Positions 11,641-64,000 of a stretch of DNA of 64,000 nucleotides are shown piece after piece. The stretch comes from Stachybotrys elegans (Eukaryota > Ascomycota > Sordariomycetes > Hypocreales > Stachybotryaceae), in contig JAGPNK010000011.1 of assembly GCA_020746835.1 (NCBI GenBank), forward strand, positions 620,001-684,000, in the 5' to 3' direction. The translations under genes and the position numbers were made by a program. Each line of letters begins with the position of its first letter. Within the stretch, counting starts at the first letter, position 1. Under the pieces are notes generated by a model that saw nothing but the letters and a program-made list of their open reading frames with translations, was not told where the DNA came from and did no database searches.

Positions 11641-12188
11641 GTTGGGGTGCTGTGTTGTTGCAGAAGGCGAGTTCCTGAGTCGTCCATTTCTCCACGAGGA
11701 GAGCTATACGGGCCTGCGAACCCAGGAATGAGGTCAGTGGTGCCTCCGCATTGCTGCTAGTCAGCGTTCTTAGCCTCATCTTCGTCCCCCAAGGCAAGCC
11801 ACTTGCATAGCTTGGGGATGTCTAGCTGCTCCGGGGTTTCCGATCAGACGAGAGCCTTGTCGATCATCCGCCAGGACGTGCAAAGCACTTTTTTACCCAG
11901 GGGTAAATGTAATATTTTACAATATTATTGTTCTGGTATCGTCTTTATCGTCAGAGGGGGCTCTTCGAAGTCGCTGGCCTGTATCCTATTGGGGCTCACG
12001 AACGGGAAATCCCACATCCACACATTTTACAACATTTTACAACATTTTACTCAGTCTGCCAAGATTGAGTCACTAATTACTCGCTGGGGCACAGCGTCGG
12101 GAGTAAAACTATGAGTCGCAAGACATCATTTTCCAAAGTCAAGTACTGGCTATAGGATGGACAGTAATTCCCAACCTGGAACAGTCGA
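11641..12188. other. Intergenic region with dispersed repeat copy A and ATTTTACA repeats
   Basis: No gene supported. It contains one minus-oriented copy of the ~80-bp dispersed repeat (11937-12017), followed at about 12021-12050 by three tandem copies of a 10-bp ACATTTTACA unit. A related TTTTACAATATT motif lies on the other side of the copy (about 11905-11930). Confidence 0.6.
11937..12017 (-). repeat. Dispersed ~80-bp repeat, copy A
   Basis: Reverse complement begins ATGTGGGATTTCCCGTTCGT and ends near GATAAAGACGATA. It matches copies at 15171-15252 (+), 22610-22667 (+, partial) and 55444-55520 (+). It differs from copy B by a few substitutions and a one-base gap. Confidence 0.85.
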
Positions 12189-14604: not shown

Positions 14605-15413
14605 GGAGAAGCTGAATGGGAGGCAGGGGTGTTTATATCTTCATCCTCGGTCCGCATAGAGTTGCCGGGAAAAGCTTATTTACTGGGCGTACGGATTACT
14701 GCCGAGTGAGTCAGACGGCGACTCCACAATAAATCGGCCTGGAACAAGTCATGAAAAAGCTTACGAGAAAAAAACCCCCCCAAAAGAAAGAAAGAAAGAA
14801 AGAAAAAACCCCAGAATTCTGACCAATCCCTTCAGCTGCTTCTATTTCATGTTCTGCCTATTGTGTATTGACCTGCACCGATATGACCTTCCGCCGTCTG
14901 TTGCGCCTCCAGTTTTTGGCAGCACGTACACCGCCGTTCGTATCAGTCCAGTGCAAGAGAAAAGGGGGTGAGAGTACTTACAAAACAGTAGTGCCCATCA
15001 TCCGAGGACTGATGGGCGAGACAGTAAAAGACAATAAAGACAGTAGGTAGAATAGCCAAGCATAAAAATGCAATGGGACGGTAAAAAAACAATAGGTGTT
15101 GCGACCACGCATCAAAAAATGCGTGATGGCAGAGCAAGAAGTCTTGGAAATTGCCTGAGCCTGGCATATAATGTGGGATTTCCCGTTCGTGTGCCCCAAT
15201 GGGATACAGACCAGTGACTTCGAGGAGGCCCCCTCTGACGATAAAGACGATATCAGATCAATAGATAACAATTGGTTAGAAAATCTATAGGAGTAGCAAT
15301 CTCAGTGGCTGATCAGAAGCAAGGGGGGACTTCATACACACTCGATTGAGAAAAGCTTGACGCTAGATCAGCTCAGCATCTGACAGAAGAACAAGCAAAG
15401 AAACTTGACATAC
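14605..15413. other. Accessory spacer with (AAAG)n microsatellite
   Basis: No confident gene. An AAAG microsatellite lies at 14782-14806. On the minus strand 14980-15270 is an open stretch reading MPGSGNFQDFLLCHHAFF... and FLCLAILPTVFIVFY, ending at a GTAAGT donor near 14983. It may be a 3' exon of the array gene described at 15414-16669, but I cannot connect them with certainty. Confidence 0.45.
15171..15252 (+). repeat. Dispersed ~80-bp repeat, copy B
   Basis: Most complete copy: starts ATGTGGGATTTCCCGTTCGT and passes through GCCCCAATGGGATACAGACC to GACGATAAAGACGATA. On the minus strand it reads open as LLEVTGLYPIGAHEREIPH. Confidence 0.88.
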
Positions 15414-16311
15414 CTTGTGGCTGCGGCGGATGTCAAAGTTTTCCAGCCACCTGTCATTCTGGAATTTAACTCTCAAATCTTCCCCACTTACATACCGCAA
15501 TTGCCTAGAAGATGCCGCCGTGGCGTCGGGCGCCTGCTTAGCTACGTCAGCATGCTTTTGCTATGTCGCAGCATTGCCTAGTGCGTACAACATACGGGAA
15601 GGCTTCTGCCTGGTGACTCGATCAGAGCTGCTGCCTTTCTGCATTGGCACACAACGCACAGAGATGGCTTCCGCCGGAGGGTCCATCTTCTCAAGTCAGC
15701 CTTGTTTCCTTTTACAAGGAGTACCGTAGTACATACACGTACGATGTGGCTTCGGCGAGTGATGCAGTCGGGCCTGCTGCCTTGGAGAGTCAGCCACCGA
15801 CTCTCTGGTCAGGTACCATGTAGCATACACAACATACGATGAGGCTTTGGCGAGTGACGCAGTCAGGTCTGCCGCCTAAGTGAGTCAGCCCTCCACCCTT
15901 TGATCAAGTATGTACTGCATAGTACACGCAACGTACGAGACGGCTTGTTCCGGGGGGCTTGATCGAGACTGCTGTCTTCACCAGTAAGCAATGTGTTTCG
16001 TAGAGGCATCAAATGACCTACCGATGATGCGATATCAAGGTTTTCGATGACTGCCTGTCTTGGTCAGTCTTTGTCTCATACTGTAGAGGTGTGGTAGGGA
16101 GCACAAAATGGCTTCCGGTGACTGGATCTGCCGCTGGCTTGCTGAGTGAGTCAGTTCCTTGCAAGCCGTATATGCGAGAGGCTTACATGGCTTCGGCGGG
16201 TGACTGGATTAAAGTTGCTGCTGCCTTCCTACATGAGTGAGTTCTCTTTGAGCGGTATGAAGGCATCGGATAGCGTACGCGAGAAAAATTTGTCGAGAGT
16301 CGTCGGGTTTC
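15414..16311 (-). repeat. Tandem array of ~100-bp exon-intron-like units
   Basis: At least eleven diverged units, each a 27-38 nt exon-like block bounded on the minus strand by acceptor and donor sites. Exon blocks are at 15414-15450, 15496-15533, 15596-15630, 15660-15686, 15743-15776, 15838-15868, 15937-15971, 16022-16054, 16105-16133, 16187-16217 and 16279-16311. Donors include GTATGT, GTACGT, GTAGGT and GTAAGC; acceptors are mostly GGCAG or GACAG, preceded by a GGCTGAC branch-like motif. The best-conserved block core on the minus strand is ATCACTCGCCGAAGCCACAT. Block lengths are often not multiples of three, so successive copies would be read in different frames. Confidence 0.65.
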
Positions 16312-16669
16312 CTGCCTGGCTAGCTCTGTCAGCCATTGGCGAATATGCGCATTGTGTACCACTTCCTTCAGGATGCAGGCAAGATAGCCGAAGGAATTGA
16401 CTTACCAATCTAGGTTCTCATCAGTATCCCAATTTAACCTTACTCAGAATATAAGGTGCTACCTGTTGGGGCTTCGATGTCTATAAGATACGCTCTCTGC
16501 TTCTCTCGTTCTGTCAGCGGGAACTTGCTACTGTAGACAATTATACGTACCCCTCCAGGACAGAACGATCTCATCATCAACCACAACCTCTACTGTCAGC
16601 GTAGGGTTAGCTATAGGATCAGATTACAATCAAGGGAGGTGATTTACATTACCTTTCTCACATCTCGAC
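15414..16669 (-). CDS. Putative gene with many micro-exons (ends unresolved)
   Basis: I infer a minus-strand gene running through the tandem array. At its upstream side three exons join well: 16669-16653 (17 nt), 16610-16551 (60 nt) and 16510-16463 (48 nt), with introns of 42 and 40 nt. Together they read SRCEKANPTLTVEVVVDDE, then IVLSWREREKQRAYLIDIEA, a convincing coding signal. They feed into the array block at 16311-16279 (KPDDSRQIFL), either through a tiny exon near 16407-16410 or another unresolved junction. Within the array two splice chains keep an open frame for many blocks, so the exact protein is unresolved. One chain meets TAG in block 15533-15496; the other meets TAA in block 16217-16187. 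No family recognised. It could be a decayed gene, and no true start codon has been identified. Confidence 0.4.
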
Positions 16670-18411
16670 CTTGAAGGTAAGGATCAGCCAATAGGACTAT
16701 CAGACCAAATGGACTAACCAAGCCAACAAGACCTACTTAAGCCAGCAATTAGCTCAAAGCCCTTTGTCAAGGTTCATGGTACCACATCACACCTGCCACT
16801 TCTACCTAGCCAAGAAGCTGGTGATTAGCCTTGCAGGACCAAATGAGAATAAGGTAGGCATACCAAGACCAAACCAGCCGCACCCACCCACCCACACACA
16901 CACACACACACAACCACACGTCTACTTGAATCCGTTAGCTGTATTGTATGATAGAAAGGTTTCAGTTCGCTGCCATGATTGAATGATTCAGCCATAATCA
17001 ACAAACATACCAAAATGGCTCGCTCCGCTACTTATAGTGTCAGCGTTTTCATGTCCAATGAAAAGTTTAGCATGGATTATCACTTGCCCTCAAAGGTACG
17101 AAGACCCCAGTCCAGACCTTGCTGAGGCGGTCAGCCAACGGATCAGCAAAAGTTTGGCTTTCCAGCATGAGGCTCACCAACCGACACATTGCTAACTCTG
17201 CTATGTATGAGTGTTAGATTGCTAATCTGTATTTTTGAGAATGGAACATTACTCTGCTAGCCCAAGCTGTCGAAGACGACAGATGGCCTGCAAGACCAAA
17301 AACAGCAGGCCAAGGAATGGATTAAGGCTCGCCCAGAGCCAAAGAACAAAATAATCCAAGAAAAAATGCGCGATCAAGTTCAAGAACTTGATAAGATTAT
17401 AGAAATCTGTCGGAAAGGAGGAAAACTTGATAATAAGGCACAAAGACGGCTCTCTCGTGCCAAGAAATAGCTCGGCTAGATATCTTAAAAACAGGAAAGA
17501 GACATATCACATAGACCATTTTATATACAAGACAAAGAATCTAAAGAGTGTCTAGCTAGTCCTAGCACAGTTTGTATGTCACCACATCTTGCCATTCATG
17601 GTGACTCCACAAAAAACCGAAACCTGGCAAATATGTGGCATGCGTAAGCCTATGATCAAGGTATGGGACAGAATGTCTCAGACATGCATCATTACACGCG
17701 CAAGGGCGATTCAAGGGCCTGTTCAACTGGTAACTTGAAGCATGTTGTGTCACACATACACATATGCATGGATAGCAACTCCTTCTCCTGCTTGGCAGCA
17801 GTGCCTGACACTCCGACTACCCCTATTCCCCTCATAACTGAGACATTGTCCGTGAGACCAATGAGCTAGATCCTTGTTGGCGTTTTGCAGACATGGTCGA
17901 GTTTGAACCCCTGGTGACCGGCTTGGTTTCTGCCGAATGCAAACGTTAGTTTGGCAATCCTGCCCAGCGTCTATTTCTGTGAACAGGGAAATTCGAGTTC
18001 AAGCTATGGAGATGGAGCTTGCAAGAATACTCTTACTTCGTCGGTGCTAGAATTTGACTAAGATAATGGGCTGTGCTTAAGAGGAGGAACCGGTATTCGA
18101 GTCTGTCGTGGCCGATCTCTCAGAACAGACATAACAAGGCTGTATTAACCATGAGGTAACACACGCATAATTCTAGAAAAAAGGCTAACAAGAAACATGA
18201 AGATATGTATGCCAATGTAAGTGATATCAGAAGTTACTGCTTTCCATTCCGCCGGAATGGAGGATCAGCACTTCCCACGCGTGTACCTGACATGCAATCT
18301 GATCCTGAAGTACAAATAATGAATCTACCCATTCTCTCCCCCTTTTGCATGTGGCAGAATCTCGTAGATGTCACGTCGTCTCCTAATTGCCTCCCTGGAT
18401 CTGGGATTGTC
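16670..18411. other. Accessory region with (CA)n microsatellite and relic coding fragments
   Basis: No complete gene. A CA microsatellite occupies 16892-16912. A plus-strand coding relic lies at about 17264-17470 (separate entry). Around 17098-17190 two plus-strand frames stay open (for example EDPSPDLAEAVSQRISKSLA), suggesting an old exon. The remainder up to the LINE 3' end shows nothing I recognise. Confidence 0.45.
17264..17470 (+). pseudogene. Relic of a basic coiled-coil C-terminus, possibly transposase
   Basis: After a CTCTGCTAG acceptor-like site the plus strand reads PKLSKTTDGLQDQKQQAKEW, then NKIIQEKMRDQVQELDKIIE, then CRKGGKLDNKAQRRLSRAKK and a stop. The Lys/Arg/Gln-rich helical composition resembles C-terminal tails of fungal DDE transposases, but this is recognition by style, not by catalytic motif. 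Upstream exons could not be assembled. Confidence 0.35.
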
Positions 18412-21400
18412 TCAACGTGGTCCTTTGTCTGTCCGCGCTCGTTTGGCGGGACGCCCAGCATGGCTATTGACATATTCAGAGAACTGCGGAATGCCAAACT
18501 GCTTCAGAGCAAAGCCTGCGATTACCGAAAGAAAAGCAGACATCCATTCGAGCAGTCCCTCGACTGAGTCAAGGTCGAAGGGTTTTGGACCATCCCTACC
18601 CCTTTTCTTCTCGGCATGCATGCTCCTCCACTCGGTTATCGCTCGGCGATATTGAACCATCCTCGAATCTTTGCAGTGAATGAACAAGTGCTCAGCCGTA
18701 TGGGGGCCGTTGAGGCACTTTGGGCAACGATCGGAACCCGCTAGCTTAATGCTGTGGAGGTATGAGTTGAGTCCGATCTTCCCCGTCCGACATTGCAGCA
18801 GGATGGTGCTCTCGATACGGCTGAGTCCGTCGTAGAGACGTAGTTGTTTCCCGTTTGCCCTGTCCATGTATGCCAGCGTTTGTCGACTACCGGACCGCCG
18901 TGTGCTTCGATACGCCTCCCATTGCTTCGCAGCCGCCTTCTTTTCCATGTTTCTGACATGGCGCGATAGCTTCGTCTTGCGCCGCAGGGCATTATTCGAA
19001 GCCGCAGTGGCTCTCGCCTTGGACTGGGAGTGTTGAGATGCGGCAGGAGATGTGTGGGCGGCTTGACTCTGCCTCGGATGAACAGCCGCTCCCTTCAACA
19101 AATCCTCCACTTGAAGATCCCGTTGATGGAGGGGATGCTTGCCAAGCTTCGCGTTGCTGAGAGCCTTTTTGCGCTCTTCAAAAAGCCTAGTCCAACGAGG
19201 GGTGTGGGATACAACAGCCTGATGCAGGAGAGCTCTGGACCTGAGCAAGTCGGAAATGGGGGGGATGCCGAGCTCCCGTAGCAGAACCGCGACCGACGTT
19301 CCGGTCATTGCCCCGGATATATGGAGCAAACACTTGTACTGGACGCTGTTGAGCCTATCCTGCTCCTTCTTGGGAAAGGTACCCTGCATGCGTTTCCCGT
19401 CGATGTACCATGCTGGACACGCATATGTGAAAATGGACTGTATGTATGACATGTACAGATTGACCATGAAGCGCAGCTTGGGGCCCCAGGTGGGGGCCGA
19501 GATGTTCCTAATGCGGTTCATGGCACGTTCCACCTTGGAAATGATCTGGTCGACGTGGCCAGCCCACGAGAGCTTGCTATCGACGACGACACCGAGAATC
19601 GTCATCTCCTGCTTCAAGACATTCTCCGGCAGCCCCTCAATCTTGGGTATCAAGGAAGATACTTGGCTGGCCGCGGGGCCGTTGTTCCTCTGGCCGCGTT
19701 TGCAGAAATGCATGAGCTTGAACTTTTCGGGACCAAAGGTGACGCCATTTTCCACAGCCCATTCCATCAGCTTCGCATAGATCTTCTCAAGAATCTTGCA
19801 GTTCTTCTCCCACGAGCCGGATCGTGCCATGATGTAGATGTCGTCGACAAAGGCTACCAGTCGATACTCTCCGTTGCGAATTGCGGTGGCAAATTCTGTC
19901 ATTGGTGCGGAGAAGAGCAGGAAGAGAATATGGGAAAAGACGCTGCCCTGCGGCACTCCTTGATTCTCATAGCCAAACTGAGGTTCGTGGCCAGGAATAC
20001 AGAGTTCGGTCCGCCTGCAGCAAAGGAAGGACCAGACAAACCCAACGAGATAGTCAGGGAGCCCCTTGTCAATCATGGTCTGCAGGAGGCTCTCTCGTAA
20101 GACGTGGGGGAATGCGCCAGACATGTCAAGGGCCAGGATAGAGACGCACTTGTACTTGGCATGCCTCCATCCCGTCATAACAAAGTCGATGATGGACTGC
20201 AGGGCCATGGTAGTGGATGTTTTCTGGATGCCGCCAAACTGGTGAAAGGGGATGTATTGACCGCAAGTTGGCGCCTCGATGTATTTTATAATTCTGTGGC
20301 ACACGATCCTCTCCAGCAGCTTGCCGAGAGTCGGGAGGAGAGCGATGGGTCGATATGACTTGGGGATGGTCGGATCCTTGCCCGCCTTGTGGAACAGAAC
20401 GGTGCGAGACTTTTTGAACAGTTTAGGATGGTACGCGAGCTTGAGACAGGCATTGAAAATGGGCTCCAAGTAGGGTGCTATGAGCTTCGACGTCATCTGC
20501 AGGAGCTCGTTGGCAATGCCGTCCAACCCTGGGGCCTTCTTCGTGGGGAGCGACTTGATGGCAGCGGCGATCTCGTCGACGGAGGTTCTGCAGGCGCCGT
20601 CGAGCTCGAAGGTGTCGGGCAGGTGCTTAGGCCGTTCTGGATTCCTCTCTTGGCTGGGGCTCCAATTGCCATCACCATAGATGGCGTCCATGTACATCTT
20701 GAACATGGTTGCGCTATCCGACACGTTCCCCTCGTCGGATTTGAAATGCTCTGTCCTTGACCACGTCGCTGGCTGCTCTCGCCGTTGGACGTTTCTTCCC
20801 CATCGATGGACCTTGTCCATATTTGTTGCCGTCGAAGAAACTGCTTCCCGATACTTTCGCTTGCGGTCCGCCGGAGTCTCGCCTGCGGGTGACGGCCGCG
20901 CTCGGGGTCGGAAAGGATCCACAGAAGGGACGAAGCTCGGCATGCCCTCCTTGAGGATGTCCACCAGCTTCACACGTGCAGCATCGATCTCGCCCTTTGT
21001 CGTAGGCTGTGGGAGGCTGCCTTGGCGCAATTTGTGCTTCACAAATTTGGTCAAGCCTTGGACGTTGGCTGACTTCCACAGGTAACGCGCACCGACCTGA
21101 AGCAGGGTGGGCAGGGGCAGGATGGTCTCTCAGGGTCGATGATCGGACCGGAAACCGGGGTGGTTGATGACTCTCCACTTTGGGCCGCCGTCGTTTATGG
21201 CGTTACTGACAAAGGCCAGGTCTATGGTTGATGACTGCTTCTCTGCATCTGTCGATCGTGTGAAGGTGATGGCGCCCGGCGTGGTTACCAACGCCATACC
21301 ACGTGTTTTCAAGCTTCTAGCCAGATATTTGGCGTCCTTGTCACTCTCAGAGCCGAATTTGGGGTTCCAGAGCTTGTGCGACAGGTTGAAATCGCCAAGT

Positions 21401-21942
21401 ACGATGTCACTCTCTGACGAAAAGCAGTGCTCGACAAACTTCTTCATGGAGAAGACGCCATCCTCGGCGTTTGTATTCCGATAGACGTTGTGTATATAGA
21501 CCGTTGTGTATGCCAGCGTGAGTTTGAGTGTGATTACCATGCCGTTGGACCAGGGATGCTCCACGATCTCGTATAGATCTTCCGGGATTGCCTTTCTCAC
21601 CAAGAAAGCGACGAGGTGAGGCCTTCGTTTGCCGGCTGCCGTTGAGGAAGCGAGGTCGACTGATGCTGAGGTGGTATCCACGTATTTTTTGCAGCGTCTC
21701 CCCAATGTGCGACCATAGACGGTATGCATGTGGTGATCTTTAGCTTCGAGTGGTTTTCCAGTCGGAGGGTACCAAAGATGGTACTCGGTAAGATTCCCGG
21801 TTCGCAAGAACTGGAGATTGGACGGGGCATCCTGTATGGCTATCACATCTGGAAAATAAGATTGCTTTCCGACAATGCCTGACAGCGCGTTAGTTCGCTT
21901 TTCGCATCCCTTGAGGTTGCACTGGAGAGTTTTCAGCTCCAC
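18412..21942 (-). mobile_element. LINE (non-LTR retrotransposon) ORF2: endonuclease plus reverse transcriptase, one in-frame stop
   Basis: A single minus-strand frame spans endonuclease and reverse transcriptase, broken only by TGA at 21132-21130. The N-terminal part (21942-21133, 270 aa) is an apurinic-like endonuclease: IAIQDAP, TLAYTTVYIHNVYRN, IVLGDFNLSHKLWN, STIDLAFVSN and the terminal SDHRP. After the stop the same frame continues (TILPLPTLLQVGARYLWK) into an 880-codon ORF starting at 21054. This contains the RT fingers/palm: KKAPGLDGIANELL, YRPIALLPTLGKLLERIV, LALDMSGAFPHV, QGVPQGSVFSHILF and the catalytic FVDD (about residue 402). A CPKC-x7-H-x4-C zinc knuckle follows near the C-terminus. 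I see no RNase H domain. An ORF1 tail (NQDDSENPDTENGS) survives at about 21980-22110 on the same strand, so the copy is 5' truncated. Confidence 0.92.
21130..21132 (-). other. In-frame TGA stop splitting LINE ORF2
   Basis: Directly follows the endonuclease motif SDHRP and is in frame with the downstream reverse transcriptase. A CGA-to-TGA transition is the simplest origin, in keeping with RIP-type or deamination mutation. Confidence 0.85.
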
Positions 21943-22164: not shown

Positions 22165-22508
22165 CAGACCTGTGAAAAAGTCATATTCATTTGAATATAT
22201 TGAATATTGAATAATTGAATATTGAATATATGACTTTTGAATATGAATATAAATACCTTAACTATATAAAGTCATATTTGACTTTGAATATAAATATTCA
22301 AATTTAAATATGAATATTGACTTTATATAGTTAAGGTATTCAAGTTTGAATATCTATATTCATATTCATATTCAATATTCAAATATTCAAATATTCAAAT
22401 ATTCAAATATTCAAATATTCAAATATTCAATATTCAATATTCAAATTTGAATATTTTAAAATTGAATACCTATATTCAAAAAAGTCAGTTGACTTTTTAA
22501 CAGGTCTG
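22165..22508. mobile_element. hAT-type MITE with 8-bp target duplication
   Basis: 344-bp non-coding AT-rich element. It starts CAGACCTGTGAAAAAGTCA and ends with the near-perfect inverse (AACAGGTCTG; reverse complement CAGACCTGTTAAAAAGTCA, one mismatch in 19). Perfect 8-bp direct repeats ATAGACGA flank it at 22157-22164 and 22509-22516. An 8-bp duplication with CAG-starting termini fits the hAT superfamily. The interior is a large imperfect palindrome: ATACCTTAACTATATAAAGT near 22253 is mirrored by ACTTTATATAGTTAAGGTAT near 22320. Runs of ATTCAAAT repeats also occur inside. No transposase is encoded, so it must have been moved in trans. Confidence 0.9.
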
Positions 22509-22609: not shown

Positions 22610-22667
22610 ATGTATGGTTTTCTGTTCGTGTGCCCCAATGGAACACAGACCAGCAACTTCAAGGATT
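22610..22667 (+). repeat. Dispersed ~80-bp repeat, partial copy C
   Basis: Contains TGTTCGTGTGCCCCAATGGA and ACACAGACCAGCAACTTCAA, matching the first two thirds of copy B with transitions; the right end is missing. Confidence 0.75.
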
Positions 22668-23625: not shown

Positions 23626-24820
23626 ATGACATCCTTCAGCAAAGCGGCCGGGGTTAGGTTGCCTGTTAGAGGTGGAAAGTCAAGCACTCCTGCCCCCGAA
23701 CGCCCGTCACGACCGCTCCACGATGGCAACGGCAGGCCAGTCATGGAGTCAGAGCTCGATAATATGACTGATCATATTGAGCCAACCGTTGCCTCGCCTA
23801 TTACACCCTCTCAGCATACCGGTGGTAACTTCGTCGAGAACCATCTTCTGCCCAGGAGTCCTCCTCCACCCGGCTTCTGACTACACAAAGGGGATGGCAG
23901 TGGATCGGCCTTAACTCTACCGACCTGGAAAGTGACCATTTGTTCAGCGTTTCTTCGGCAATCTGCGATCAAGACAACTTCAAGGCCAAATTTTTCACGC
24001 AGGGCATCGCCCTATTCCTACCTCGACGTTTGGCCGACAATTGGGTCAAGACCAAATTGGTTAGCGTTGCCCAAGACTTCGTGCCCCAGGCCTCTCTTCC
24101 AGGCAGGTTTCTATCATGTCCGGTAGGTAGTTGGACACTTCTCTGGCCGTCTTGAGACTAACGGTGCCGATAAGCTTTCTTCCCCAATCTCCCATTCCCC
24201 AGTTCTGCCATAACTGTTGCAAAGTCGGGCACAAAGCAAAGAACTGTTATTGGCCTCGGGTGTGTGGCAAATGCAGTGAGGCTCATTTGACAAAGGACTG
24301 TAGCATCGATCCTTCTCAGAAGGAGTTACTGAAGTGCCCCAACTGTGGCATGAAGGGCCATGCAAACTTTCAATTGGCTTGCCAGGATCCGCAGGCGAGA
24401 ATGGAGCGCCTGAGGATTTATCAACTCATGACCGTACCCCTTGGATTGTGGCCAGAGTCTGGCTCACGGAAAAGACAACACAACGACGACTCTGAGACCA
24501 CAAACTTGGCCAAAAAGAAGAAAGTACTGGTAATCGACAAGTCTGCCTTTTATCACATTATTAACCACCATCTTCAGATTGAACCCAGGCCAAAGAGTCG
24601 GCCGGCACCTGCGACTACGTCAACCAAAGCACGCAAACAGGTTGATTCCCCTGGCGGGGAGACGGCTAAGGGCCAGGAGAATGGAAAGAGAAGGTCTCCC
24701 CGGAACAAAGGCCGCGTTTCCAGTGGCGAGGGCTCGATCTTGGACGATTCCCCTCGCTCATCGCAGCTGTCAGCAAGCTCTATGGAAGAGGACACCGGTT
24801 CCATCCACGTTGCTATGTAA
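23626..24820 (+). pseudogene. Gag-like ORF1 relic with three CCHC-type zinc knuckles
   Basis: Plus-strand retrotransposon ORF1 (nucleic-acid-binding gag-like protein) broken over three frames: 23626-23880, about 23890-24155 and about 24131-24820. The middle part reads WQWIGLNSTDLESDHLFSVS and later VAQDFVPQASLPGRF, typical of fungal LINE ORF1. The last part has three knuckles, CHNCCKVGHKAKNC, CGKCSEAHLTKDC and CPNCGMKGHANFQLAC, followed by a basic, low-complexity tail. The frames overlap at DTSLAVLRLTVPISFLP, showing small indels rather than introns. It lies opposite in orientation to the LINE ORF2 at 18-22 kb, so it belongs to another copy or to an inverted segment. Confidence 0.8.
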
Positions 24821-26822: not shown

Positions 26823-29072
26823 CTAGGAGATACTATCGGTGCTCTCCGAGTAGAGCAGCAGCCTCGCAGCGGATTCGCGCCCATTCGGAACGGTCCCGAG
26901 CAGGGCGGTCGGCTCCTTGTTATCAACCAATCTGGTATAGGTGCCCTTGTCAATTAGTAGCCGTACGACGGCTCCCTGGCTCCTAGTGTTCCCAGTCTGG
27001 CCGTATGCCGGGTCGGCAGGGAGGTCGTCAGGCTTGAGTAACTGCCACCAACGCTTCGGCTCCAACGGCTTGGATCTCTGGTCCCGGTAATCAAGACGGA
27101 GCCGCTGGAACAACCCGGCCGTCACTTTGAACCCCACCGGCCAATCCGCCAAGTCGTCTGCTTCCCCCTCGGCAGGGATGGCCATGGCGGGCTGGGGACT
27201 ATCATCCTTCCCCATCTCCCAGTATTGGTTACCGTGTACCTTGAGCGGCCGGCTCCTTCTATCCACCTGCCACATTCCGACACCTTGGTGCTGGGGATTG
27301 GGGTCCACAGGGATGAGGTGCCGCGTGTATTTGTCGAGGAAGTGGCGCAAGTCCGTGGAGAGAGTGGGGAGTTCCCTTCGCAGCTGCTCCTTGTCCACAA
27401 AGCTGTCAAACTTAGCGTCCTGGACCTTGTTGAACTGCAGAGCGGGGCCGACCAGCAAGGCCCCAGGGATGGTGATGATTCTCGGGGCATGCATCCCCCC
27501 TGGTTCGCCCGACTTCGCAAGTATGGGCCACGCGGTGAAGCCGCATCTCGCGAGCCCCGTCAAGATGCGGATCGTCAACATGTCTTCGGCCTTGTCCAGA
27601 AGGCTTTGCTTCTCTGGCTTTCTGCTCTCCGCGTCGAGAGTCTTCTTGATATCGTCGATGGTCGGTGCACTATCGAGGAGCGTCTTGCAGTAGTGGGCAA
27701 GGGACGCCTCGCGGCCTGGCGTGCAGCGCCGACGGTCGGGGTGAAGTATGTCGAAAATATCGAGCACCGACGTGTTGGCGGTGAGCGACGAATCCCTGGC
27801 CAACAAGTCCTCGTAGTGGAGGCGCAGCAGGTCAGACTGGTAATGAGAACCGTCTTTAGCCGTCCTGTGCCTGAGCCTCTGCGCCAGGTTTAGGCTGCTC
27901 ACCAGCTGGACTGCCAAGTTATATGCCTCATCACCCAGTGGCGCCTCAGAGTCTCCTCTTTTGCCACTTCCTTCCTCACAGAGCCGGTCCAGGATGACAT
28001 AGGGAAGAAGGTGGTCAAGCTCGAGGCCGGTCGTCCCTTGGAGTACGGCCAGAGTCTTCCAGGCTGACTCGGCCAGAGACATGAAGCAGTCGCGCTTATT
28101 CTTCTTGCTCTTGATCAAGACATCCCAGACAAATTCCAGGTCTACCCATGCGGCTGGAGTGCTCCAGTTCTTTCCTATGTAGAACTGGTGCAGCCAGCTG
28201 CGCAGCTCCTTGAGAGCAGTGACGTACGGCCACTCATCTTTTGGCGAGTTGAAGCTGCGAAGACCAATCTCGCTCGCAATCGCGAGGCCATTCAGTATGT
28301 CCAAAAGTCCCGCCTCGTCTTTGGTCACCTTGCGTCCTTTAGTCTTATAAGTGATGTCATGCTCGACTTCGGACCAGGCATGCATGATGACGGTGCCGAC
28401 CTGGATCTCAACAGTTGCCACGTCCCAGATCAGGGCTGCGTCTCCCAAGTCCCGCGGCTGCAGCCGCTTGGGCACCTTGACAACCAGATGCAAGGCGTTG
28501 TACCCAGAGAACTGCTTTTCGTGCCCATCGAGGTCGAGGTTGTTCTGTGGCTTGCCCTCGAGCCACGCTTTGTGTCGCTTGAGCAGCCTCTTCGGATCGT
28601 TCAAGCCCCCCATCTTCTTGGTTTCCTTAGCTTCGACGTACCCAGCTTCACCGAGCACTTCCAGCACCCCGCCCTTGTCGTTGGGGAAGTAGAGTATGAT
28701 GCGTGCGCCGAGCATGTCGTGAAAAGCCTTCTCAAGCTCGTCCGGGGTTCCAAAGTGGGCTGAATCGGACACGCCCTTGCCGTATCCTAAGTGTTTCTCG
28801 AAGGCGCTCACCCCTCCATTTTTCTTCATCATCTCCGCTAGGGCTTTATGGGTGCTGAACCGGTCTTCCTGTCGGCGCGCTGCAGTGCCGGTGATGGACC
28901 CCCAAGTCTTTACCCGAGCCGCGATGGGGATGTGCTGGATGCGTTTCTGGGCCAAGACATGGCCCAAGTCTTGGGCGACGACATCCAAGCATCGCTGCCA
29001 CTCGGGGAGCTTGGAGAAGTAGATTGGCCCAAACTTTGCGAGGAGCTCATCCAGAGTGGGATTGCCAGCCAT
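26823..29072 (-). CDS. RelA/SpoT-domain protein with degenerate ankyrin tail
   Basis: Single-exon 749-aa protein starting at Met 29072 (MAGNPTLDELLAKFGPIYFS); an upstream in-frame Met at 29129 would add 19 residues. The N-terminal ~250 residues carry the RelA/SpoT nucleotidyltransferase pattern: RVKTWGSI (~53-60), DMLGARIILYFPND (~119-132), KQFSGYNALHLVVKVP (~186-201) and VEIQVGTVIMHAWSEVEHD (~221-239) then YK. These match the D-x2-G-x-R, Y-x3-H and EIQ-x-x-T..E-x2-H elements of (p)ppGpp synthetases, although R of EIQIRT is G here. A long middle region has no motif I recognise. The last ~50 residues (VVRLLIDKGTYTRLVDNKEP) resemble decayed ankyrin repeats. Such domains in fungi are little studied; the product could be an alarmone, a modified RNA, or none. 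Confidence 0.88.
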   Translation of the reverse strand: MAGNPTLDELLAKFGPIYFSKLPEWQRCLDVVAQDLGHVLAQKRIQHIPIAARVKTWGSITGTAARRQEDRFSTHKALAEMMKKNGGVSAFEKHLGYGKGVSDSAHFGTPDELEKAFHDMLGARIILYFPNDKGGVLEVLGEAGYVEAKETKKMGGLNDPKRLLKRHKAWLEGKPQNNLDLDGHEKQFSGYNALHLVVKVPKRLQPRDLGDAALIWDVATVEIQVGTVIMHAWSEVEHDITYKTKGRKVTKDEAGLLDILNGLAIASEIGLRSFNSPKDEWPYVTALKELRSWLHQFYIGKNWSTPAAWVDLEFVWDVLIKSKKNKRDCFMSLAESAWKTLAVLQGTTGLELDHLLPYVILDRLCEEGSGKRGDSEAPLGDEAYNLAVQLVSSLNLAQRLRHRTAKDGSHYQSDLLRLHYEDLLARDSSLTANTSVLDIFDILHPDRRRCTPGREASLAHYCKTLLDSAPTIDDIKKTLDAESRKPEKQSLLDKAEDMLTIRILTGLARCGFTAWPILAKSGEPGGMHAPRIITIPGALLVGPALQFNKVQDAKFDSFVDKEQLRRELPTLSTDLRHFLDKYTRHLIPVDPNPQHQGVGMWQVDRRSRPLKVHGNQYWEMGKDDSPQPAMAIPAEGEADDLADWPVGFKVTAGLFQRLRLDYRDQRSKPLEPKRWWQLLKPDDLPADPAYGQTGNTRSQGAVVRLLIDKGTYTRLVDNKEPTALLGTVPNGRESAARLLLYSESTDSIS

Positions 29073-30337
29073 TCGGGCGGCGATTTGGGTGTAATGGGTG
29101 TGTGTAGTTGTGAAGTAAACAAAGGACACTCAGCGCTCACTCAGCCTTCGTGGTGTGATACGGGACGGGGGCATTTCAAATTTTAAAGCCCAGGGCCCTT
29201 CCAATATCGTGAAGCTGTTGTACAAACCCCTTTTGGTCTACACATTCAGCGGGTAGGGACATTGTCACACGGCTTAGCCTTAGCCTGAATACGTGTCAAC
29301 CTGCTTACCAACTTGCTGCGTGATTTTATGCAATCTGAAATCTCCAGCAGCGTTTTGGCTCAGCCGCAGTTGTGATTCGCGGTTTGGCGAGCAGGGCGAG
29401 CAGGAAAAAGGCGAACTGCATCTTCTGGGACGCGGACGCCTTACCGTCGACCCTCTTCAGCCGCCCTCGGCCCATTTTGCATTTTGCACACCGAGGCCGA
29501 AGCTGCAAGGTTGATTTTTCATGTCAGCTGAGCCCACCTCTATGCCGAGTGGCAGGAAGTTGGGTCCAAGGGTCAACGCTGCAATGCAGCGTTAAACCTT
29601 AAACTCATACGCCCTCTGAAGGCCTAGAAAAGCAACTTGTTCTAGGCTTGTAGCTTGTCAGACCAACAGCAGGCTGAGAGGTCGGCATTTGTTATCGAGC
29701 CACTTACACGATGCCACGCGCACCGCCCCATATGTGTCGACCCAATGCTGTGTGGTAGGGGCAGAAAGGAAGGGGTGACTCGAGAGTTGTTGAGGCTGTG
29801 ATATAGGCAGGGGACAGCCCTGAAGAGCTGACGCCCTCGGACGGTGCCGACGAATCACATGCACTCCTCATCAACCATTATCCAGTTTCGGTGATAGGAC
29901 CCCTCCCTACACGGCACCCTTCCCTGAGGCTCATCCCTTCCTGCGCAGTTGCAATGAGTTTGGGCTGTATTTTGTTTCCCGCGAGAAGCGCCTCAGTGCT
30001 TCCACCCACCAAAGAACAAGGCTGTTGGCATGCGGGGTTTTCGTCATCTGCAGGGTTCGGCCTTCGGGGACGGCCTTGGATGAGGCTTGGAAACCAGTAC
30101 TTGCAGAGGGTCCATGTGACGGAACTATCGGTCACTTGGAAAGGAGGCTCCGCGGCAGTTTTGGAAAAGAGGATCGAGGCCTTCAGCGGCATTTGCTAGT
30201 CTTCCGATATCTCGAGTCTTGACAAAATAACCATCCACTCCCAACGTGCGATATCAGTACATATCTCTCCATCTTGCATCTCCAAAGCTTGTTCTCTAAC
30301 CTCCACCAAACCAGCACCCGTCTACACAACCCGGAAA
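29073..30337. other. Intergenic region, divergent promoters
   Basis: About 1.26 kb between the RelA/SpoT gene and the coiled-coil gene, which point away from each other, so both promoters lie here. Short ORFs around 29.9-30.2 kb look like chance. Confidence 0.5.
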
Positions 30338-39340: not shown

Positions 39341-40707
39341 CCCGCAGCACGGTATATATATATATTTACAGAGTCAGTTGCGCCCAGGGATACGCAGGAG
39401 AAGGTGTAGTTTTTATACCAAAAACCAGATCATAGTCACATCAAGCTCACCGAGAGAGAGGTCAACGCTCAGTTTCTAGCGAATACCCGCGGAGAGATAG
39501 CGGGGGCTCAAAGCGGACCTCACCGGTGGAGGACTATCACACGGCAGGCCACGGGGTGTGCCCAATACATGATGGCAGGAATACTGGACCAAATAGCACT
39601 TACAGTTTAGGAGAGAAATATAAACATTAATAATGGTGATGAAAAGAGTGTGCAGTCCGAGGTAGAAGCAGTAGAGAGCAAACAAACAGTAGGGCAAAGC
39701 AGCCATGAACAGTAAGGGAAAACAACGAGGCCATTGTCAAGCGTACAGTATAGCCGACTGGCCAAGCCACCTCATTTGCTTGTCTATTTCTAGATTGTAG
39801 TCTTTGTATTATCTACTGATAAAGATTAGTAAAGAGAATCAAGAGGCCGTCATAGAACTAGGTATACATACTAATTTTTCTTATAAGCTGGCTACTCCTC
39901 TATGTCTGTGTATTTATCTAACTTGTTGATTCTCGTACCCAACTACAGCATACAGAGTTCTATCCGCCTGTGCGAAGGAAGAACCAGACAAACCCAACGA
40001 GACAGTCAGGGAGCCCCTTGTCAACCATGTCTGCAGGAGGCTCGAGGTAGATCTTGTTTATGTCCCGACCACGCTTAATGGCTCTGTGGGGCCGGCCTTT
40101 GGTTGCGCTGGCGACCTATACATTGTGGTTCAACCAGCACGGATATATCTACATACAGACCCAACACAGAATTCAAATTTGACTGTCCTTTCCAAACATT
40201 ATGGCTGTCGTGGTCAATTGATGACAGACCTGTGCCTTGGTAGGGTAGTTCACTAGCCCGATGGGTACATGATCTCTTGGCTTCTCTTCTCTTCCTGTCT
40301 GCGTGCGACAGTTCTGTCCGAAAATGCTGGGGGATAGACCTGTGCTTTGGATTTTATTTTATTTTATTTATTCACTCTTCTTTTGTGCATTGATGGACAG
40401 CTGGTTGTGCTTCTTGCCCCACACCAGCATCCAACCTCCAGCATCAAGACAGCAAATGAGAATGCCACATGCTTTATCTGAGTCAATTGAATGGAATCTG
40501 ACCGACACTTCTGACGTCCGAGTCTCACATCTGCTACCAGCTCGGTGCCGGCCAATATGCCCAGCCGAGACATGATGGATAGGGGTCAAATACAGGGTCT
40601 GCCACCAGCCCTCTTCTCATAAATTCGCCGATGCTCCCTCCCTCCTTTCACTCTCACAGCAATTCACACGCCCAAAACAACAAGATAATAATAAAACAAG
40701 ATAAAAA
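39341..40707. other. Repeat-bearing intergenic region
   Basis: No supported gene. Contains a TA run near 39355, a LINE fragment (39950-40043), two copies of AGACCTGTGCYTTGG (40226-40240, 40336-40350), an ATTTT microsatellite (40351-40370) and a ~30-bp segment similar to 26684-26712. Confidence 0.6.
39950..40043 (+). mobile_element. Fragment of the LINE reverse transcriptase region
   Basis: About 94 bp matching the plus strand at 19996-20094 inside LINE ORF2, for example ACCAGACAAACCCAACGAGA and CAGTCAGGGAGCCCCTTGTC. Differences are mostly single substitutions plus a small gap. Confidence 0.85.
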
Positions 40708-55390: not shown

Positions 55391-55968
55391 TACAATGAGA
55401 TATGTCAGAGTATTAATACTAGAAGGATCTAGCTTTTAATGGTATGTGGGATTTCCTGTTCTGCCCCAATGGGATACAGACCAGTGACTTTGAGGAGGCC
55501 CCCTCTGACGATAAAGACATATATCAAGTGTTAAGGGTAAGAAACTTGATAGAAAACGAGTACGAACGGGTTGGTATTGGGATGGTTCAGGAAGGCCATC
55601 TGTCTCAGCTGAGTGCCGATGTTCGTCTTCTGTAAATGACAATACGAGAGGTAATTCATATGTACGTATAGAACTATAACTCGAATGGGGAAAAGGAGGG
55701 GAGGTTCTTGTTGGAAGCATCTTCAAGGTCAGGTCTCTTCTTTGATATGTGTTGGCAACGCATTCCATTGTTTACAGCAGAAATCTTCTGCCGATCGCTA
55801 TTCGAACCATTGTCAGGGCAGGACAAGTAACAAAAGATACAGTACATAAGACGCAAGAACCCGAGAGAAAAGACAGAAACAAGTAAGAATACGGCCCGGC
55901 CGTTTGCGCCAATCTATCCCGATGCAGTTTCAAGTCGTAGAGAAGGGGCTGTCAGATTGAGGCCCGAT
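55391..55968. other. Intergenic region with dispersed repeat copy D
   Basis: No gene supported apart from the repeat copy at 55444-55520. Confidence 0.55.
55444..55520 (+). repeat. Dispersed ~80-bp repeat, copy D
   Basis: Begins ATGTGGGATTTCCTGTTCTG and continues CCCCAATGGGATACAGACCA through GAGGAGGCCCCCTCTGACGA, ending GATAAAGACAT. Nearly identical to copy B except for a 3-base loss after the GTT and a few substitutions, though 40 kb away. Confidence 0.88.
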
Positions 55969-62444: not shown

Positions 62445-64000
62445 ATGTTTTCGGCCTTTGTGGAAAGCATGCAGCGCAGCCATAGTCGCGAGCAGGACCC
62501 CTCTCCGACCCGAATGGATCAATCACCCTTCGCCGCCTTTGGCCAAGCACCGCCCGCCCCAAACGACGTGGATCGCGACCAGCAGGTCCCTCGCGGCTCT
62601 TCGCCTGACCGCGACGGCGATGTAGACATGCCAGACTCTCCACCCCCTGATGCAGCCGGTCCTGCATCTCCTCCCTATAGTTCTTTTCAGCCTCAGACTG
62701 ACCCCGTCGCTTCTGCACCCTCCATCTTTGGCCCTGCATTCGAATCCTCCTCCAGAGATGTCGATGATGAGCCCGAGCCCCAAGAGAATCCCGACGCGAC
62801 CATCCTATCGCAGGAACTAGGCGAGACGATCCCAGCTACCAAATCTGCCTCGCCCGTCGATGCCGACACGCAAATCGACCAAGAGACGGCGGCGGCAAGT
62901 GAGAGAACGCCTCCTCCCAAGACACCCGCGTCAGGCAAGAAGCGCGGTAGACCTCCGGGTAGCCGCAACGTTGAAAAGACGCCAGCTCACATCCCGAGGG
63001 GCGAGCGGACACAGCCGAAGCGCGCTGCTCGCGACGCGCCAAAGCCCGCGCAGGAGTCGGCGCCCGCGCCAGCCAAGACCGTGCGACGACGTCGCGTGGC
63101 TACCAAGGCCGCCGTCACCAAGCCTGCTGCTACCAAGAGGAGAGGCCGTCCCAAGGCCACGCCCGCCAAGGACGCTGCCACTGCGCCCAAGAAGAGAGGT
63201 CGACCCAAGGCTGACGCGGTCGAGCCTCCAAAGAAGAGGGGTCGTCCCAAGGCTGATGCAGCCGAGGCTCCCAAGAAGAGAGGGCGACCCAAGGCCGACG
63301 CGACGGAAACCCCCAAGAAGAGAGGCCGTCCCAGTACTAAGACGGCCGCCAAAGCGACCACCAAGGCAAGCACCAAGGGAAACACCAGGACCACACTGGC
63401 AAAGGCGGCCAAGCCTCAAGGTGTTGTCAAGCGAGGACGTCCCCCAAAGACGGACCCATCCAAACTGGAGGCCGCTCTCAAGACAGACAAGGCTACCAAG
63501 CCAGCCCCGACTGGGAGAGGACGCGGTCGTGCCGCCAAGCCCGCTCCTGTCGCCGACAAAAAATCCGTCACAACGTCAGGACGCGGCTCCATCAGGACCT
63601 CTGCCACCACCCCTGCGGAATCGACAAAGCCTGCTGGACGCCGCGGGCGACCGGCCACCCAAGCTACCCCCAAAGACACACAAACACCCTCCAAGAGGGG
63701 TCGCCCTGTCAGCAAGCCGGCGCCATCTGCGGAGAAGACTGTCACACCCGGGCGAAGAGGCCGGTCCTCCAAGGCGGGTGGTTCTGATGCCCAGCCTGCT
63801 GCTGAACCTGCCAAGTCGGAAACCCCGGCCCAGACTCCTGGCCGTCGAGGCCGTCCTAAAGCTACTACTACGCCTTCGGTCACCCCGGGTACCCGTTCCG
63901 CCACAAAGCCAACCCCCAGGTCGGCCACGGCTCGCCAGGGCACCAAGTCCGCCGCCACCCCCAAGCCTGTTGAGCCAACCGCTGAAGCTACAACGTCTGG
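62445..64000 (+). CDS. AT-hook DNA-binding protein (3' end outside window)
   Basis: Open from ATG 62445 (MFSAFVESMQRSHSREQDPS) to the end of the window, at least 518 codons with no stop. The first ~150 residues are acidic, Pro/Ser/Asp-rich. From about residue 160 the sequence becomes Lys/Arg/Pro/Ala-rich with about ten AT-hook cores: GRPP in KKRGRPPGSRN, then repeated KKRGRPKAD, KRGRPPK, GRRGRPA, SKRGRPV and GRRGRPK. Four KKRGRP units near 63187-63330 form a regular ~16-residue tandem repeat. AT hooks bind the minor groove of AT-rich DNA, so the protein is probably nuclear and chromatin-associated. The C-terminal domain, which would define its complex, is not in view. Confidence 0.85.
   Translation, partial: MFSAFVESMQRSHSREQDPSPTRMDQSPFAAFGQAPPAPNDVDRDQQVPRGSSPDRDGDVDMPDSPPPDAAGPASPPYSSFQPQTDPVASAPSIFGPAFESSSRDVDDEPEPQENPDATILSQELGETIPATKSASPVDADTQIDQETAAASERTPPPKTPASGKKRGRPPGSRNVEKTPAHIPRGERTQPKRAARDAPKPAQESAPAPAKTVRRRRVATKAAVTKPAATKRRGRPKATPAKDAATAPKKRGRPKADAVEPPKKRGRPKADAAEAPKKRGRPKADATETPKKRGRPSTKTAAKATTKASTKGNTRTTLAKAAKPQGVVKRGRPPKTDPSKLEAALKTDKATKPAPTGRGRGRAAKPAPVADKKSVTTSGRGSIRTSATTPAESTKPAGRRGRPATQATPKDTQTPSKRGRPVSKPAPSAEKTVTPGRRGRSSKAGGSDAQPAAEPAKSETPAQTPGRRGRPKATTTPSVTPGTRSATKPTPRSATARQGTKSAATPKPVEPTAEATTS

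Follow-up and report, generated by a model that had tools for sequence, protein, structure and literature searches.

A micro-exon gene as the very probable intron-bearing source of a SINE-like retroposon family in Stachybotrys elegans

What is the purpose of a gene that is cut into pieces of a few dozen nucleotides each? The question is raised by the minus strand of a 64,000-nucleotide stretch of Stachybotrys elegans DNA (the window; contig JAGPNK010000011.1, positions 620,001–684,000, forward strand) from an assembly of 43,405,109 bases (43.4 Mb) in 61 contigs. A first-pass annotation, made from the letters of the window, had read 16669–15414 (window positions throughout) as an array of tandemly duplicated micro-exons of a protein gene, with a decayed minisatellite as the alternative.

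A genome search with 15414–16669 gave 173 matches, mostly to single blocks, and blocks adjacent in query order were found to abut in the target. At 19 loci outside the window (L006 and L020 being one place) the blocks, mostly 25–50 bp long, keep the window order while the spacers are absent, showing that these dispersed copies are spliced versions of the window gene. They also lengthen the gene in both directions, by a 114-nt last exon (15284–15171) and by upstream exons reaching to about 17487. The last-exon match ends at 15165–15172 in 18 of the 19 loci and at 15229 in L015.

For a closer view, 62 copies were placed on the window by spliced alignment free of any GT–AG requirement, and joints were retained when both flanking blocks were at least 12 nt long and at least 80% identical. 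In a few of the 62 rows (L018, L024), the 5′ part of one copy was used again for a second tail beside it. Of the 245 joints, 192 are compatible with GT–AG introns in the window, where random placement of the same gaps would give 2.5; they represent 49 distinct junctions. The 53 joints that do not fit we put down partly to alignment ambiguity and slips in repeats, to a GC–AG intron after 17088 and to mutation resembling repeat-induced point mutation (RIP). These joints rule out a decayed minisatellite, and the proposal that the minus-strand blocks are bracketed by donor and acceptor sites is borne out. As far as genomic DNA can tell, the micro-exons and introns are real, the proof being the joined blocks of the copies and not splice scoring. 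A branch-like CTGAC motif is present in 8 of the 14 array introns (counted by eye).

The copies point to a gene of about 23 exons that would run on the minus strand from about 17487 to 15171, beyond the limits first drawn (16669 and 15414) at both ends. Most exons have 4–58 nt, the smallest 4 nt. Three copies reaching exon 1 have their 5′ ends at 17486, 17481 and 17477, a spread of at most 10 nt just below a TATA box. The features, as deduced from spliced-copy alignments or, for the units of the array, from joints, are:

17519–17527, minus strand: TATA box TATATAAAA, about 32–42 bp before the 5′ starts of the three longest aligned copies
17253–17487, minus strand: exon 1, its first base deduced from L055, L058 and L066
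17182–17200, minus strand: exon 2, acceptor at 17200 or 17197
17088–17121, minus strand: exon 3, acceptor at 17121 or 17117, followed by the GC–AG intron
17011–17027, minus strand: exon 4, 17 nt, from alignments of L067 and L058
16864–16921, minus strand: exon 5, GT-rich
16793–16805, minus strand: exon 6, 13 nt, optional (L052 and the joint set)
16653–16732, minus strand: exon 7, 80 nt, inner part absent from one copy, L067
16551–16592, minus strand: exon 8, unit 1, the VEVVVDDEIVLSWRE block of the first-pass annotation
16463–16502, minus strand: exon 9, unit 2, acceptors 16502/16499/16496
16406–16409, minus strand: 4-nt micro-exon ATTG with flanks CCTAG and GTAAGT, from copies crossing the region
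16279–16323, minus strand: micro-exon, unit 3, acceptors from 16323 to 16307
16187–16228, minus strand: micro-exon, unit 4, acceptors 16228/16220/16217
16105–16141, minus strand: micro-exon, unit 5, acceptors 16141/16137/16133/16127
16022–16054, minus strand: micro-exon, unit 6, acceptors 16054/16050
15937–15975, minus strand: micro-exon, unit 7, acceptors 15975/15971/15968
15829–15875, minus strand: micro-exon, unit 8, acceptors 15875/15868, donors 15838/15829, skipped in one copy
15737–15776, minus strand: micro-exon, unit 9, acceptors 15776/15773, donors 15743/15737, skipped in some copies
15589–15686, minus strand: exon of up to 98 nt, units 10–11, with 15609–15589 also used alone
15492–15536, minus strand: micro-exon, unit 12, acceptors 15536/15533, donors 15496/15492
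15414–15450, minus strand: micro-exon, unit 13
15338–15362, minus strand: micro-exon, unit 14, acceptors 15362/15355, donors 15342/15338
15171–15284, minus strand: last exon, 114 nt, with the family's common 3′ end ...GGGAAATCCCAC, then AT shared with the target site (from copies)

The splicing recorded in the copies is highly variable. Many acceptors have alternatives 3–14 nt away, some donors likewise, and exons are skipped (15937 to 15773; 15838 to 15686). Additionally, the copies hold 3–14 nt remnants of intron ends that differ from copy to copy and match alternative AGs in the window introns. The 13 copies that span 15937–15284 have 13 distinct patterns (the filter dropped joints in some), and 77 of their 78 pairs show an outright intron conflict, the exception being L011 with L055. 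The 4-nt exon ATTG was present in all eight copies inspected across its region, a part of those spanning it, as well as in L070, and reads ATTA in L058, which carries RIP-like mutations. A 50-nt GT–AG stretch (15659–15610) is kept in 16 of the 62 rows (15 if both L018 rows are counted as one) and spliced out in one copy. Finally, single introns are retained in L014 (16189–16119), L019 (16123–16029) and probably L075 (15355–15171), indicating that these introns existed when the copies arose, as expected of incompletely spliced RNA. The longer copies are thus natural cDNA fossils, from which the splicing noise of one gene, down to a 4-nt exon, can be followed through evolutionary time in DNA without RNA.

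How did the copies spread? The last 30 nt of the final exon have 432 matches in the genome with up to three mismatches (225 on the plus and 207 on the minus strand), and a pattern tolerating C>T and G>A plus one mismatch has 437; both controls, the former with the reversed pattern, gave 0. The copies inspected stop at, or a few bases from, one common 3′ point, and no poly(A) was seen at their 3′ ends. A consecutive sample took in every listed tail from C1 to C4:564,839 other than the window's own, 47 in all. Their median length is 109 bp; 15 copies cross at least one joint, and 19 have a target-site duplication with a score of at least 9. With a score of at least 10, such duplications flank 42 of 102 copies, against 0 of 2000 mispaired flanks; they are 10–19 bp long, most of them 14–16 bp, while the other 60 copies lack a clear one. 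In all 42, the upstream copy of the duplication has AT within its first four letters, adjoining the element's end. The family thus combines a constant 3′ end with variable 5′ truncation, as LINE retroposons do. Given the joined blocks, the common 3′ end, the 5′ truncation and the target-site duplications, we conclude from the genomic record that its spread is LINE-type retroposition (target-primed reverse transcription) of spliced RNA. Sequence matches place short copies in the window as well:

11926–12017, plus strand: short last-exon copy, 91% identical
55444–55526, minus strand: short last-exon copy, 92% identical
22610–22665, minus strand: short old copy of a part of the last exon, 82% identical

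Among individual insertions, L007 (around 1804) has a 19-bp duplication beginning with ATG, by which a start codon would be doubled; the gene start there is presumably that of a glutathione S-transferase gene. L054 (C2:838304–838916) apparently consists of two truncated element copies in tandem, the first without its 3′ part. A stable 3′ hairpin as recognition signal was discarded, since the last exon folds no better than its shuffles (z +1.78).

The window also offers a candidate for the partner enzyme, by linkage:

18412–21942, minus strand: LINE ORFs, endonuclease at 21942–21130 and reverse transcriptase at 21054–18412

This LINE lies 0.9–4.5 kb upstream of the array on the same strand and has one in-frame TGA between endonuclease and reverse transcriptase. 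The best named relatives of its reverse transcriptase ORF are in Trichoderma, Neonectria and Fusarium, the four best being 37–40% identical. A 96-bp piece at 39950–40043 is 91% like its ORF2. Window 17800–19000 has no second match in the genome, and we dropped the idea that the LINE forms a multicopy family. A partner identified by a common tail was likewise sought in vain: the element's 3′ end was found neither in the 3′ regions of six LINEs and the window LINE nor, in sense orientation, in parts of two further LINEs. One of these two regions does hold a 67-nt tail match, which is antisense to the LINE and hence a separate copy rather than the LINE's own end; the second region holds none. The nearness of the window LINE to the array is suggestive of a partnership, nothing more.

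The same nearness (0.9 kb, same strand), together with the small number of reverse transcriptase matches (34 for RVT_1 in 43.4 Mb), could also mean that the adjacent LINE has the array as its 3′ UTR, the copies then being 5′-truncated copies of that LINE. We consider this highly improbable, as 17800–19000 is matched nowhere else, no match found reaches above 17486, and a TATA box sits directly above the common 5′ end; the in-frame TGA of the LINE speaks against it too.

Several other features were seen near this LINE or elsewhere in the window. An ORF at 24131–24820 on the plus strand has several CCHC-like zinc-knuckle motifs (by eye; Pfam zf-CCHC_4 at no better than E 0.011) and is LINE-ORF1-like, but it lies on the strand opposite to the endonuclease and reverse transcriptase ORFs. 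AT-rich tandem repeats (ATATTCAA)n with inverted similarity occupy 22190–22470, beside the LINE and the old tail copy. At 26826–29129 on the minus strand there is a 768-aa ORF with a RelA/SpoT domain (PF04607, E 4e-9), and at 63189–63333 a 42-bp tandem repeat of 3.5 copies whose unit translation reads as an AT-hook-like peptide. Elsewhere in the genome, the LINE copies L077 and L078 are 99% identical and end in telomere-like (CCTAA)n; a third LINE, L079, is 90% identical to them and has another ending.

Does the gene encode a protein? The first-pass annotation had seen clear coding sequence in the joined exons and a meaningful rotation of frames. When isoforms were built in the window's own letters (15 rows, L018 counted twice), the longest ATG ORF was no longer than in dinucleotide shuffles in 14 rows (p≥0.10). 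The fifteenth, the L067 isoform, has a 174-codon ATG ORF with p=0.017 (300 shuffles). This one row is what favours a gene of fast-changing micro-exons that makes protein, as first described or of the schistosome kind, with processed pseudogenes as a by-product. We regard such a gene as very unlikely, because the other rows are at chance length, because the splice patterns change the frame freely, and because 432 tail matches seem to us far too many for a by-product. Frame rotation as a maker of new peptide fares no better: alternative acceptors and donors shift the frame at will, and nearly all of the spanning copies conflict pairwise (77 of 78). Splice variability and the ORF test together led us to set a frame-rotating protein gene aside. 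Exon 1 as the antisense strand of a protein gene was rejected as well; its 69-aa antisense ORF has no Pfam match, and the five genome matches of that ORF are the window and four element copies. The transcript is thus apparently a non-coding RNA, as judged from its ORFs.

Is the window locus the origin of the family or just its most elaborate member? No second intron-bearing locus was found with the array as query (40 scored of 125 candidates) or with the upstream half (all 9 candidates scored). Over the array and last exon, at positions covered by at least four copies, the copy majority (≥70%) has no non-window base at 681 of 682 positions. For exon 1 and the other 5′ exons, window and copy majority disagree at 7 of 227 positions, five of them RIP-type changes in the copies and two the reverse. 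Even the most diverged long copies, L055 (82% identity) and L070 (79%), have many joints in common with the others.

The opposite history would be a gain of introns, in which an intronless dispersed element is ancestral and many introns, in the manner of introners, later invaded the window copy. Introns 3–8, 3–10, 7–8 and 7–9 are indeed alike beyond shuffles. However, units 4, 5, 8 and 9 resemble one another in their exons as well, as in a duplication of exon plus intron, and the copies keep intron ends of varying length that match the window's alternative AG and GT sites. A few loci keep single introns, and the copies bear the marks of reverse transcription. Intron gain seems to us barely conceivable. 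Introners would appear as near-identical introns at unrelated loci; among the candidates scored (40 of 125 for the array query, all 9 for the upstream half), the intron-bearing structure was seen at the window alone.

The array itself was compared unit by unit, with 200 dinucleotide shuffles for each of the 91 pairs among its 14 units. Nine pairs have z>4.5 and join units 3, 4, 5, 7, 8, 9, 10 and 11. The pairs 8–9 (z 17.1) and 7–8 (z 10.1) are strongest, 7–10, 7–9, 4–5, 3–10 and 4–9 are moderate, and 5–10 and 8–11 are marginal. Units 1, 2, 6, 12, 13 and 14 show no unit-level similarity in this test. The view that all blocks are diverged copies of one ~100-bp unit thus applies to eight units and finds no support in the other six of the 14. 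Growth by exon-plus-intron duplication is partly supported by these similarities, units 8–9 and 7–8 being clear duplicates. In the old copy L055 there is one more exon of the unit-8/9 type, a third, which is absent from the present source; units therefore seem to come and go.

We consider it very probable that a non-autonomous, SINE-like retroposon has its intron-bearing source gene at the window locus and works as follows. A promoter with the TATA box would start the RNA near 17487, presumably with Pol II, and the RNA would end near 15171. The spliceosome would join the ~23 exons with a very loose choice of acceptors, donors and exons to be included. A LINE-type endonuclease/reverse transcriptase would recognise the last exon of the mature RNA, which lacks a convincing ORF, and would begin to copy from the terminal ...CCCAC(AT), using a nick beside AT. 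The reverse transcriptase would mostly halt inside the last exon, leaving 5′-truncated, intronless copies flanked by duplications of about 14–16 bp. The Pol II start at the TATA box, the identity of the enzyme, the RNA 3′ end and the absence of a protein product are the parts of this model that we infer. Sources of mobile elements are usually pictured as compact and free of introns, and a retroposon family of hundreds of copies that springs from some 23 micro-exons would be out of the ordinary. The window by itself could not reveal this role.

Substitutions that separate a copy from the source, counted in the direction of the copy as (C>T or G>A):(T>C or A>G), vary with copy length. In the 62 rows, in which many short copies had been picked for tail similarity, the counts are 56:30 below 160 bp (24 rows), 51:38 at 160–260 bp (12 rows), 212:34 at 260–450 bp (11 rows) and 661:124 at 450 bp or more (15 rows). 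By rising length class, the consecutive sample gave 105:72 (40 copies), 34:17 (5) and 71:7 (2), with a search pattern that favours C>T and G>A in the last 30 nt and with most copies fetched only to about 600 bp. An at least threefold RIP-type excess is present in 17 of 26 rows of at least 260 bp and in 5 of 36 shorter rows, for which three events were also needed. The nine long rows below that excess include L044 (367 bp, 0:1) and L067 (735 bp, 2:5); at the other extreme stands L058 with 156:3, where 113 of the 156 changes are at CpA/TpG. The copies therefore carry the length-dependent C>T/G>A excess that marks RIP in duplicated DNA. From these counts, RIP-like mutation appears to have struck many, not all, of the long copies, to have touched the short copies little and to have nearly spared the source.

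Perfect homology over 155 bp is enough for RIP in Neurospora and 220 bp lead to substantial RIP, and interspersed homology can be sensed too (PMC4858203). In 58 of the 62 rows, source and copy have no aligned block as long as 155 bp. The other four rows do, through exon 1 (L055, L058 and L066) or through a block of 192 bp (L075); a further C2 copy outside the 62 rows has 175 bp of exon 1 in common with the source. One may speculate that the micro-exons are a shield. By splitting the source, they would keep the stretches it has in common with most intronless copies at or below about 117 bp, under the length that RIP senses; the source could then flood the genome and itself stay intact while long copies meet destruction. 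Exon-plus-intron duplication and loose splicing would be retained for the longer life that they give the source. We hold this idea tentatively, and as rather doubtful. The numbers agree with it without proving it: a similar picture would come from any intron-rich source of retrocopies, unmutated long copies exist, and the 155-bp threshold is that of Neurospora. The locus allows a direct test of whether splitting by introns lets a mobile sequence evade homology-triggered mutation.

In the literature searched (open-licence papers), we found no intron-bearing source of a SINE-like family. With SINEs such as Mg-SINE the window family has in common that it is short, non-autonomous and present in hundreds of copies, with truncations, target-site duplications and a 3′ end that is fixed. 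It differs in being spliced from a multi-intron source with a TATA box, classical SINEs being Pol III units without introns. Rfam gave no match with E≤1 in 14900–18200 and, at four spliced-copy loci, a sub-threshold miRNA match alone (E 0.15), which led us to reject a known structured RNA; ARAGORN found no tRNA in those four loci or L001. On the basis of these Rfam and ARAGORN searches there is no sign of a Pol III unit of tRNA, 5S or 7SL origin, and because the family is also spliced we do not file it as a SINE. Processed retropseudogenes are similar in being intronless copies of spliced RNA with target-site duplications, and here too exons are joined exactly at source introns (the 192 of 245 joints). 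The window family differs in its lack of poly(A), its hundreds of copies, its apparently non-coding source and in consisting mostly of the last exon alone. The tailless retropseudogenes of mammals, as far as described in the available part of PMC5322556, are a partial parallel. Micro-exon genes also have many very short exons, but no protein product is supported for the window gene. Functional microexons are called previously undescribed in filamentous fungi in the accessible text of a 2024 paper (PMC11121469).

The nearest published case that we found is WEIRD of Magnaporthe grisea, a non-coding fungal RNA in many LINE-made copies, with MINE as the chimeric retroelements; around one chimera there are 14-bp direct repeats (PMC2104539, here and below the available part of its text). 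WEIRD is reported only as a fusion with the MGL LINE, its own source gene was not found, and the words intron, splic- and exon are absent from that text (PMC2104539). Speculatively, the WEIRD source was perhaps missed since a gene in such pieces could escape ordinary similarity searches. In the window family, by comparison, the source is found, it has about 23 exons, and the copies carry the 3′ end of that source itself.
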